Source of the DNA: Ruminococcus sp.
GTDB lineage: Bacteria; Bacillota; Clostridia; Oscillospirales; Ruminococcaceae
Reading direction: 5' to 3'
Assembly: GCA_017542475.1 (NCBI GenBank)
Contig: JAFXXD010000031.1
Location: 1 to 64,000 of the forward strand
DNA length: 64,000 nt
Made by a program: the position numbers and the translations under genes. Of this stretch, positions 7,260 through 61,104 are shown one piece after another. The notes beneath the pieces are model-generated. The model worked only from the letters and a program-made list of their open reading frames with translations. It searched no databases and had not been told where the DNA came from. How positions within the stretch are numbered: the first letter of the stretch is position 1; each line of letters starts with the position of its first letter.

Positions 7260-7308
7260 AATTATCGCCGCAGGCGATACCGCAATTATTCGTTATTCAC
7301 TATTCATT
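7260..7308. repeat. family B half element
   Basis: One hairpin, ATCGCCGCAGGCGAT, followed by the boundary ATACC and then tandem heptamers of the ATTATTC/GTTATTC/ACTATTC type. It is the right half of the full elements listed at 11.9, 21.9, 26.2, 44.0 and 61.0 kb; the left half is missing and a family A unit abuts in its place. Confidence 0.65.
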
Positions 7309-7343
7309 AAAAAGCACGGGTGACAAGTCACCCGTGCTTTTTT
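7309..7343. terminator. bidirectional terminator between convergent genes
   Basis: AAAAAGCACGGGTGAC (7309-7324), AA loop, GTCACCCGTGCTTTTTT. A 16-bp stem with U-runs on both strands, between the regulator (plus) and the acetyltransferase (minus), whose stop codon it touches. Confidence 0.9.
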
Positions 7344-11943: not shown

Positions 11944-12060
11944 TGAATTCGTAATTCATAATTCGTAATGCGTAATAATCAGTATCGCTTACGCGATTTA
12001 TTCTGATATCTTGCCGTCAGGCACACATCAATTACGAATTACGCACTAAGCATTACGCAT
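11944..12060. repeat. family B element, full
   Basis: Left arm of tandem heptamers (GTAATTC, ATAATTC, GTAATGC), hairpin TATCGC-TTAC-GCGAT, an AT-rich linker, hairpin TGCCGTCAGGCA, then a right arm in the opposite orientation (AATTACG, AATTACG, CATTACG). The boundary trinucleotides have decayed (AGT and ACA instead of GGT and ACC). It lies between the small RNA and the M15-type peptidase gene. Confidence 0.8.
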
Positions 12061-12061
12061 T

Positions 12062-14620: not shown

Positions 14621-14812
14621 TGTAGGGACGCGCATTGCGCGTCCGCAATTACGTAAAAACAAACGATTTAAAATTCGCGGACGACCAATGGTCGTCCCTA
14701 CAAAACGTTGCCGCGGGTCGTTCTGTAAGGCACGGACGCCCAAAGGGCGTCCCTACATTTCGTTGCCGTTGGTATTTCTGTAAGGCACGGGCGGATAATA
14801 TCCGCCCCTGCA
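14621..14812. repeat. family A hairpin repeats, four units
   Basis: Units at 14621 (GGGACGCGCATTGCGCGTCC), 14678 (GGACGACCAATGGTCGTCC), 14733 (GGACGCCCAAAGGGCGTCC) and 14789 (GGGCGGATAATATCCGCCC). The first is in one orientation, the other three in the opposite. The last two are preceded by near-identical joints containing TTCTGTAAGGCACGG. It occupies most of the gap between the AraC gene and the transketolase genes. Confidence 0.8.
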
Positions 14813-14860
14813 TCAATTCCGAATTATAATTACGCATTACGCATTACAAATTACGCATTT
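14813..14860. repeat. heptamer tract (family B arm)
   Basis: Tandem ATTACGC/ATTACAA heptamers like the right arm of full family B elements, without the hairpin pair. Confidence 0.55.
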
Positions 14861-21828: not shown

Positions 21829-21849
21829 TGGTATCACCTTTCGTTGTAT

Positions 21850-21953
21850 TAATGCGTAATTCGTAATTCGTAATTGCGGTGTCCCTTCGGGACTTATTTT
21901 TAATAATATCGCGCCAGCGATACCATTAATTACGCATTACGAATTTTAATTCG
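21850..21953. repeat. family B element, full
   Basis: Left arm GTAATTC heptamers (three in a row), boundary GGTGTC, hairpin GTCCCTTCGGGAC, AT-rich linker, hairpin ATCGCGCCAGCGAT, boundary GATACC, right arm of AATTACGCATTACGAATT. It separates divIVA from ileS. Confidence 0.85.
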
Positions 21954-21977
21954 CCGTTTCCGCTGCAGGGCAGTCGA

Positions 21978-26178: not shown

Positions 26179-26296
26179 CAGCCATCAGCCTTTAGCCATC
26201 AGCCCTTAGCTCGCGGTATCGCTGACGCGATAATATCGGAATATGTCCCGAAGAGACACCTCAAGCTAACGGCTAACGGCTGGCAGCTAACGGCTT
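26179..26296. repeat. family B element, full
   Basis: Left arm of AGCCATC/AGCCTTT heptamers, boundary GGTATC, hairpin TATCGC-TGAC-GCGATA, AT-rich linker, hairpin GTCCCGAAGAGAC, boundary ACACC, right arm CGGCTAA heptamers. It lies between miaA and hfq. Confidence 0.85.
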
Positions 26297-35534: not shown

Positions 35535-35700
35535 GTGTGAGAACTCAGAGCTGAGAGTCTATGACAACAGGGCACTATATATCAGTTGTCATAGTCGTCA
35601 TAGTTGTCATTCAGAGCTAAGAGCTCAGTGCGCGTACCTTACCAATCAATAATACCTTGATATCTTGGTATCTTGGTATCTTGGTATCTTGACCGATGTA
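35535..35700. repeat. mixed short tandem repeats (family B arms)
   Basis: GAACTCA/GAGCTGA heptamers near 35540 and AGAGCTAAGAGCTCAG near 35615 flank a centre with TGACAAC and three copies of a GTCATAGTY nonamer. Next come four copies of TATCTTGG in tandem at 35657-35692. The matching GATACCAA copies are 400 bases away at 36087-36101, in the opposite orientation. Confidence 0.7.
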
Positions 35701-35732
35701 AAGCAATAAAGTGAAATTGAACAGGGACGGAA

Positions 35733-35797
35733 TTAATGAATATTGAAGAATGAATAATGAATAGTGAATAATTGCGGTGTCCGCTGACGCGGACGTA
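35733..35797. repeat. family B half element
   Basis: GAATAAT/GAATAGT heptamers, boundary GGTGTC, hairpin GTCCGCTGACGCGGAC; the second hairpin is missing and a family A unit begins 10 bases later. Confidence 0.65.
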
Positions 35798-36055: not shown

Positions 36056-36103
36056 GGGTCGCGGGTCCTGTTGGGACACCGCGCCAAGATACCAAGATAC
36101 CAA
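36056..36103. repeat. family B right half with octamer arm
   Basis: Hairpin GGTCCTGTTGGGACACC then GATACCAA repeats, the inverted partner of the TATCTTGG tract at 35657. The whole 35535-36103 block thus looks like one family B element into which family A units and a second half element were inserted. Confidence 0.55.
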
Positions 36104-38894: not shown

Positions 38895-38937
38895 AAGCCG
38901 ATACCACAAGCTAATGGCTAACGGCTAACGGCTTGTC
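38895..38937. repeat. family B half element
   Basis: Boundary GATACC followed by GCTAATGGCTAACGGCTAA heptamers, ending at the stop codon of the DUF4340-like gene. No hairpin pair is seen to its left. Confidence 0.55.
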
Positions 38938-43975: not shown

Positions 43976-44092
43976 AGCCTTTAGCTATTAGCCTTTAGCC
44001 TTTAGCTAATGGTATCGCTGACGCGATATTTTAAATAAGTCAGCGAAGCTGACACCAAAAGCTAATGGCTAACGGCTAACGGCTAATGGCTT
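43976..44092. repeat. family B element, full
   Basis: The clearest copy. Left arm AGCCTTT/AGCTATT heptamers, boundary GGTATC, hairpin TATCGC-TGAC-GCGATA, linker TTTTAAATAA, hairpin GTCAGCGAAGCTGAC, boundary GACACC, right arm GGCTAAC heptamers. Located between ribF and the ABC operon. Confidence 0.9.
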
Positions 44093-53828: not shown

Positions 53829-53993
53829 TGTAGGGACGCGCATTGCGCGTCCGCAAATTTCACACATAATCGCGGACGACCAACGGTCGTCCCTACACAG
53901 ATAATCTGCAGGGACAATGCCCGCATCGACCCGCAAAATATATACGGGCTGATGCAGGCATCAGCCCCTACATCAATTACGAATTACGAATTT
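53829..53993. repeat. family A hairpin repeats, four units, with a heptamer tail
   Basis: Units GACGCGCATTGCGCGTC (53835), GACGACCAACGGTCGTC (53875), a weaker GGGACAATGCCCGC (53911) and GGGCTGATGCAGGCATCAGCC (53946). Then AATTACGAATTACGAATT, a short family B arm. Fills the gap between the Ig-like gene and the solute-binding lipoprotein gene. Confidence 0.75.
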
Positions 53994-60990: not shown

Positions 60991-61104
60991 CAATTCGGAA
61001 TTAGAAATGCGGAATGCGGAATTATGGTGTGCCTGTCGGCACATATATAAAAACATCGCGAAGCGATACCGCAATTCCGAACTCCGAATTCCGAATTCCA
61101 AATT
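60991..61104. repeat. family B element, full
   Basis: Left arm GGAATGC/GGAATTA heptamers, boundary GGTGTG, hairpin GTGCCTGTCGGCAC, linker ATATATAAAAAC, hairpin ATCGCGAAGCGAT, boundary GATACC, right arm GAATTCC/GAACTCC heptamers. Between the aminotransferase gene and the following one. Confidence 0.9.

Follow-up and report, generated by a model that had tools for sequence, protein, structure and literature searches.

The repeat at positions 43976-44091 (plus strand) of the window, by which we mean the whole stretch of 64,000 nucleotides analyzed here, DNA of a Ruminococcus sp. of the Ruminococcus flavefaciens group, is built of tandem heptamers enclosing a pair of hairpins. The left arm (43976-44010) consists of four AGC(C/T)DTT heptamers followed by AGCTAAT, and the core (44011-44056) comprises GGT, the hairpin ATCGCTGACGCGAT (44014-44027), an AT-rich linker of 11 bases (44028-44038) joining it to the second hairpin GTCAGCGAAGCTGAC (44039-44053), and ACC. 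The right arm (44057-44091) carries the word of the left arm in inverted orientation and has a terminal GGCT. Full copies follow this plan: about 35 nt of heptamers, GGT, hairpin, AT linker, hairpin, ACC and inverted heptamers. The copy scores E 4.7e-17 with R1, a covariance model of the 69-position core trained on 25 copies from the same genome (G000), this one and the other four full copies of the window among them; loci L039 and L040 were excluded from the training alignment. Its orthologue in the related genome G008 has exactly one heptamer fewer in the right arm.

Heptamer-armed repeats of the window

The five full copies listed by the first-pass annotation are all visible in the sequence with the plan described there, their tandem heptamers are detected by TRF, and all are listed among the R1 matches, though all five are training copies. 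The copy at 11946-12061 (plus strand; 11944 in the first-pass annotation) has AATTCGT/AATGCGT arms (11946-11980 and 12026-12061) around a core at 11981-12025 and scores E 1.4e-5 with R1. The copy at 21850-21945 (minus strand), with AATTCGT arms (21850-21877 and 21925-21945) and core at 21878-21924, has divIVA on one side and a class I tRNA synthetase gene on the other. The third one, at 26180-26295 (plus strand; first placed at 26179), lies between hfq and miaA and has AGCC arms (26180-26214 and 26261-26295) around a core at 26215-26260, whereas the copy at 60992-61104 (minus strand; R1 E 1.1e-10) has AATTCGG arms (60992-61025 and 61071-61104) around a core at 61026-61070. The proposed boundaries GGTRTC and GAYACC hold as a general plan; the exact edges fail in the copy at 11946, which reads AGTATC...GCACA. 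A location between genes was also proposed, and none of 106 copies lies wholly inside a predicted gene, although the hfq-miaA copy and the end of the hfq frame have six bases in common.

Three of the four half copies proposed earlier are present. The one at 7264-7311 (plus strand; 7260 in the earlier list) consists of the hairpin ATCGCCGCAGGCGAT, ACC and inverted AGTGAAT-type heptamers and matches R1 weakly (E 0.08); to its left stands a hairpin of the type of the window's other repeat family, family A. The second, at 35732-35794 (plus strand; formerly 35733), has AATAATG/AATAGTG heptamers, GGT and the hairpin GTCCGCTGACGCGGAC; it is absent from the R1 matches listed, and genome G004 differs over this stretch. 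The third (38903-38933, plus strand; formerly 38895), with ACC and inverted AGCC heptamers, is likewise absent from the R1 matches listed, and no counterpart of it was found in G008 or G033. The fourth, at 36056, carries the octamer CCAAGATA and no heptamer. Two mutually inverse octamer arrays, CTTGGTAT at 35656-35691 and CCAAGATA at 36084-36103, flank a cluster of repeats at a single gene joint, and the G004 version of the former is two octamers shorter. No Rfam RNA family was detected at gathering score within the window.

Folded as RNA, the whole copy at 43976 reaches -60.5 kcal/mol (z -9.3, and z -8.8 for the other strand), and the predicted fold consists mainly of helices of six pairs with one mismatch per seven bases and with both hairpins inside. 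Among the other window copies folded, the hfq-miaA copy has a z score of -2.65 on one strand and of -8.57 on the other, and for the copies at 60992 and 11946, on one strand each, the scores are -6.04 and -3.45. The region of the copy at 43976 has three promoter-like sites against 0.7 expected, one of them in the core, all being consensus matches only. The fold on both strands and the promoter-like sites would suit RNA elements of operon mRNAs (spacers, structures for processing or stability, or weak bidirectional terminators) that spread long ago and are now kept for their function, whereas the number of intrinsic terminators (GC stem plus T run) in the same region is near chance, 1 against 0.7 expected. 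We hold such a role to be unlikely, if still the most serious of the alternatives, and return to it with the gene context and the facing heptamers.

The dimensions of the unit were taken from 170 copies, some few of them chimaeric or partial, which combine 103 copies found by place (106 less three with a short flank) and 67 found by pattern (78 matches less four chance matches, four G008/G019 duplicates and three near contig ends). The arms are true repeats of period seven, as had been claimed: seven is the best period of 311 among 340 arms and of 16 among 300 control stretches, with a mean self-match at this period of 0.65 and 0.25, respectively. Their lengths cluster as well; 83 of 212 arms measure 34-35 nt, 31 measure 36-39, 15 measure 27-28 and 18 measure 20-21, the rest being spread. 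Arms with a modal length are part of the unit in this Ruminococcus-type host, in agreement with the first-pass annotation. They form inverted, imperfect terminal repeats as in MITEs.

In the core, hairpin stems were said to change from copy to copy and yet stay paired, and on four of five covariation measures they exceed shuffled alignments. Changes on both sides occur at 13 pairs in the 25 copies against 7.3 in shuffles (none of 500 as high) and 81.7% of cells are paired against 78.3%, but further pair types (26 against 24.8, equalled in 181 of 500 shuffles) are not above shuffles. Pairing is mostly absent at the three bases outside GGT and ACC (25 copies). As a bare pattern, GGTRTC-N25..55-GAYACC has 54 matches per strand and its reversed control 16, so the count is partly due to chance. 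In seven apparent chimaeras recognized by eye (L160, L164-L168 and L223), the left arm and first hairpin are followed by the AT linker and then by a family-A hairpin.

Heptamer tails of AATTACG type also stand beside family-A type hairpins in the window (14800-14860 and 53960-53992), and heptamer arms seem to be common to the two repeat families. Such tails, and the gain or loss of whole heptamers between orthologues, could be expected if slippage made heptamer arrays of the STRR kind that flank hairpins by chance, without any mobile unit. This explanation is already disfavoured, and we consider it highly improbable: the arms are inverted, share a word class in most copies (121 of the 133 that can be classified), have a preferred length and enclose one core plan with many words.

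Word subfamilies and distribution of the repeats

The heptamer word marks subfamilies on one core plan and not loci. The earlier claim of a separate word for every locus does not hold even for the copies of the window: those first placed at 26179 and 43976 share AGCCDTT and those at 11944 and 21850 share AATTCGT. Over the 170 copies the words are AGCCDTT, AGTTGAG, AGTGAAT/AATGAAT, AATTCGT/AATTCGG, AATTGAG/AATGGAG, AATAAAG, AATTGAC, AGTGCGT, AATGTGG and GTAAGTA; the classes underlying the agreement between arms were defined by us. In the genome of the window, AGCC stands in both arms of 26 of the 42 copies analyzed. Eight of the 12 exceptions to the agreement come from a single metagenome-assembled genome (MAG), SUG65. 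Its mixed copies (L211, L222, L227, L230, L231, L250, L254 and L261, the right arm of L231 being unclassed) have AATGTGG- or AGTTGAA-type left arms and AATGAAT-type right arms.

Similar copies are dispersed over one and the same genome, as observed directly. R1 finds at least 47 distinct places in the genome of the window at E<=0.1 and at least 39 at E<=0.001 (strands merged, the 25 training copies included). Among 60 genomes of relatives at least 15 match at E<=0.01, namely 13 of 36 from the same genus (its own included) and two of 24 from other families, and the distribution is patchy. In an order-wide draw at E<=1e-6 at least six of 295 genomes match (its own included), which is a lower bound because the filters were stricter and few candidates were scored per genome. 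The first-pass annotation had allowed that few copies, stems without covariation or arms of the slippage kind would count against a family; what was found is many copies, stem covariation on four of five measures and a preferred arm length.

Searched as an exact pattern, the commonest core gave 78 matches in 76 stretches of GTDB species genomes. Four are chance matches without arms (Dialister, Methylobacterium, Intestinibacillus and Undibacterium), three from isolate RGIG8615 are cores without heptamers, and the other 71, mostly heptamer-armed by eye, belong to Ruminococcus flavefaciens strains and to MAGs of Oscillospiraceae and Clostridia. Many of the matching MAGs come from gut and rumen. 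Two scans of viral_contigs with exact patterns gave no core match and a plasmid collection gave no match to the copy at 43976; a phage or plasmid home was rejected on these results. In a literature search, none of the titles and abstracts listed describes an element of this kind from Ruminococcus or Clostridia, subscription papers being thinly covered so that an earlier description is possible.

Mismatches between facing heptamers

In the AGCC subfamily the fifth base of the heptamer (D) is A in 106, G in 99, T in 96 and C in nine cases. If the two arms of a copy are laid against each other, as in a hairpin, D is rarely the same in facing heptamers: 12 of 130 are identical against 31.9% expected (sd 4.2), a value as low being reached in none of 10000 trials in which right arms were permuted among the 40 AGCC copies left after removal of six orthologues. 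The matches number 10 of 76 in the genome of the window, none of 42 in G008 and one of eight in G035. A second tool, applied to 23 copies with at least three good heptamers per arm, found 18.5% of D cells paired, G-U allowed, against 39.5% (sd 4.5), with none of 500 shuffles lower. Identity is also reduced, though less, in non-facing heptamers of the same copy (76 of 390 against 31.4% expected; 0 of 10000 permutations), and a mismatch rule strictly bound to register was rejected on this account. Within one AGCC arm D is identical in 150 of 396 heptamer pairs, too few for slippage to account for the likeness of the six remaining positions.

Since facing D bases are rarely equal, AGCC arms can form helices of 6 bp interrupted by mismatches, whereas a single match at D yields 13 consecutive base pairs. 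Apart from D, the heptamer positions are mostly paired in the 23 copies, with an exception at the third heptamer from the core. Its position 4 (columns 11/60 of alignment A9) has T in exactly one arm in 21 of 23 copies, the left-right pairs being T-G in 11, C-A in 10 and C-G in two; the side bearing AGCT as opposed to AGCC varies although the core hairpins were used to orient the copies.

All six kinds of facing mismatch are similarly frequent at D (16 to 21 each). On the strand that is transcribed, 13 G-U mismatches stand beside 16 A-C mismatches, a similar number; G-U is not avoided beyond A-C, so a rule acting on RNA as opposed to DNA is not favoured, and the absence of a strand bias weighs against a function in operon mRNA. 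Taken over its whole length, the arm helix has no more compensatory change than shuffles do, all five measures being below their means, and the case for an interaction of the arms thus rests on the depleted matches. These depleted matches are a statistical sign of an interaction of the arms in the cell, with perfect pairing at a disadvantage. In other subfamilies, some with few or recently related copies, the depletion is not significant: 17 of 62 against 0.272 for AGTT, 14 of 63 against 0.212 for AGTGAAT, 4 of 24 against 0.238 for AATTGAG and 1 of 25 against 0.078 for AATTCG. Any explanation is therefore confined to AGCC for now.

Gain, spread and proposed mobilization of the repeats

Presence and absence of copies at syntenic joints were observed directly. 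The hfq-miaA copy is absent from G004, G008, G033, G015 and G035, and the copy next to divIVA from G004, G008, G015 and G035, while at the latter joint G033 has an AGCC-armed element with a different core. The four joints lacking the divIVA copy (counterparts of window positions 21838-21977) have a small hairpin before the tRNA synthetase gene, which varies in sequence between species and seemingly keeps its pairing, as judged by eye. At the counterparts of site e3 of G035, G007 and G019 have degraded copies, G006 has none and G010 has a repeat of family A. Neither a target-site duplication nor a clean empty site was seen by eye, the junctions lying in diverged spacer.

In G035 the sequence of one AGTTGAG copy recurs at six further places with 93-99% identity. 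If lower identities are admitted (81-100%, across 91 or more of the 110 bases and with the arms), the places number 20, the copy's own among them, and the comparison also lists arm fragments. The six closest places suggest recent spread as a unit. In the genome of the window the nearest copy is identical at a median of 78% of bases (42 copies compared). The hfq-miaA copy looks newly gained, to judge from its absence even from G004, a genome whose blocks on the two sides are identical at 91 and 94% of bases. Within the genome of the window, however, no full-length relative of this copy exceeds 80% identity, the value of the best one, which is odd if the copying was recent.

Five orthologous pairs are identical at 580 of 585 aligned element bases (99.1%) and at 2637 of 2878 flanking bases, and the indels within the elements, directly observed as 7, 7, 0, 7 and 21 nt, are whole heptamers only. 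Such identity would be expected of an element kept for a function in mRNA. The adjacent 40 nt on either side are nearly as conserved (392 of 400, 98%), so the identity does not prove that the element itself is under selection, and element-specific conservation was rejected.

As to gene context, 64 of the 106 copies lie between co-directional genes, eight between divergent and eight between convergent genes, and 26 could not be placed. The first-pass annotation saw a preference for operon joints; the co-directional share of placeable copies (64 of 80) is that of the background (21 co-directional, three divergent and three convergent among the 27 gene pairs of the window with gaps of at least 60), so operon enrichment was rejected. 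The predominance of co-directional neighbours agrees with a role in operon mRNA, but its equality with the background does not, nor do the patchy distribution and the gain and loss at joints. Stop codons in all three frames, found in 208 of 297 periodic arms read on entering the element and in 91 of 297 read outward, also favour such a role; permuted words give 137 (sd 7) of 297 for entering arms, and counting each distinct word once leaves a modest excess, 42 of 58 compared with 60% for permuted words.

The likeness to REPINs, pointed out by the first-pass annotation, lies in the inverted pair of short hairpins, in the many dispersed intergenic copies and in the apparent spread as a pair (PMC3116915 and PMC3733652). 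The hairpin foot of REP and REPIN sequences bears a tag of GTAG or CGTC type (PMC3733652), whereas the foot found here is GGT before RTC...GAY and has neither tag, and long inverted heptamer arms of several words accompany the core. The annotation had also proposed a search for a RAYT-type gene, encoding a Y1 transposase. No Y1_Tnp match was found at E<=0.001 in the genome of the window (94% complete), in G007 (93%), in G008 (99%) or in the drafts G004 (74%) and G033 (73%), with 13 to 65 R1 matches listed for each of the five, both strands counted, and a RAYT was rejected as mobilizer of the heptamer-armed repeats. Y1 matches occur in five of 13 copy-bearing genomes of the genus (G010, G017, G019, G032 and G035), which agrees with the repeats being true REPINs whose RAYT was lost from the genome of the window or is missing in the draft.

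A weak Y1 gene of RAYT size (Pfam E 1.8e-7 to 1.2e-6) was found in G035 (L280, 1456-2007), G034 (L281, 1315-1836), G017 (L282, 1456-1986) and G012 (L283, 1456-2034), adjoining gyrB as judged by a DNA_gyraseB domain in G034 and by eye in the others. All four frames contain an inverted pair of family-A hairpins (TGTAGGGGCGGATATNATCCGCCC type; TGTAGGGGCGGAT..ATCCGCCC), so this candidate RAYT-like gene is read as linked to family A. The family-A pairs within these frames, the five genomes with copies and no Y1 match, and the absence of the tag make it improbable that the heptamer-armed repeats are REPINs, and they are not assignable to them by the tests made. No autonomous partner or transposase was found among the Y1 genes searched.

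STRRs are tandem heptamer repeats of cyanobacteria, which form free-standing direct arrays and are not known to have a preferred length or an inverted partner. The Ruminococcus arms resemble them in their period and differ in being inverted in pairs and in having a preferred length. In the small dispersed repeats (SDR) of Nostoc, reportedly described by Elhai et al. in 2008, small hairpin elements are likewise embedded in tandem heptamers, yet the arrays there are said to be ordinary ones, whereas the two arms described here stand in inverted orientation, keep to a preferred length and belong to the unit. TAACTGA direct repeats of Beggiatoaceae, Cyanobacteria and Bacteroidetes are also intergenic tandem heptamers of patchy distribution; they use one word, occur in the main genome as 169 direct sets and one indirect set and lie mostly just 5' of start codons, and no hairpin core is mentioned in the available part of the report (PMC4679880). 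Bacterial MITEs and the RU repeats of enterobacteria (103-168 bp; PMC2759123) are similar in size, intergenic, non-coding and palindromic. The Ruminococcus repeats differ from them in that their terminal repeats are heptamer arrays with differing words, and neither a target duplication (by eye) nor a parent transposon was found.

The composite family, with a REPIN-like core and STRR-like arms, is real; its unit structure, preferred dimensions and several word subfamilies on one core plan were observed directly. With moderate confidence we take its members to be non-autonomous mobile repeats of about 125 bp, copied as one unit in Ruminococcus and other Oscillospiraceae. The inverted arms, commonly of 34-35 nt, would pair into a long imperfect hairpin, and a trans-acting enzyme recognizing the folded core may mobilize the element; recognition of the core is suggested because words differ on a shared core plan. 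In the AGCC subfamily, selection or the loss of perfect hairpins may maintain the mismatches and so prevent a long perfect arm duplex. After insertion, such a mobile repeat would be an intergenic spacer, mainly between co-directional genes at the background rate.

A more speculative thought, which we rate as a long shot, is that the arms are written and not merely copied, each new copy receiving two inverted arrays of the same word, with fifth bases in AGCC chosen so as not to pair. Writing would explain why D letters are near random from copy to copy and almost fixed between orthologues, why facing matches are rare, why words are specific to subfamilies on one core plan, and why the lineage-specific hfq-miaA copy lacks a close parent among the copies of its genome. 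The process would call for an enzyme adding or repairing a templated 7 nt on a hairpin intermediate, and it would make the repeats a new class of mobile DNA in bacteria. Provided that the repeats are still being moved, the lack of a Y1 match in copy-rich genomes leaves a mobilizing activity to be found. The family unites in one element two kinds of bacterial repeats that are usually kept apart, heptamer arrays and hairpin-pair repeats.
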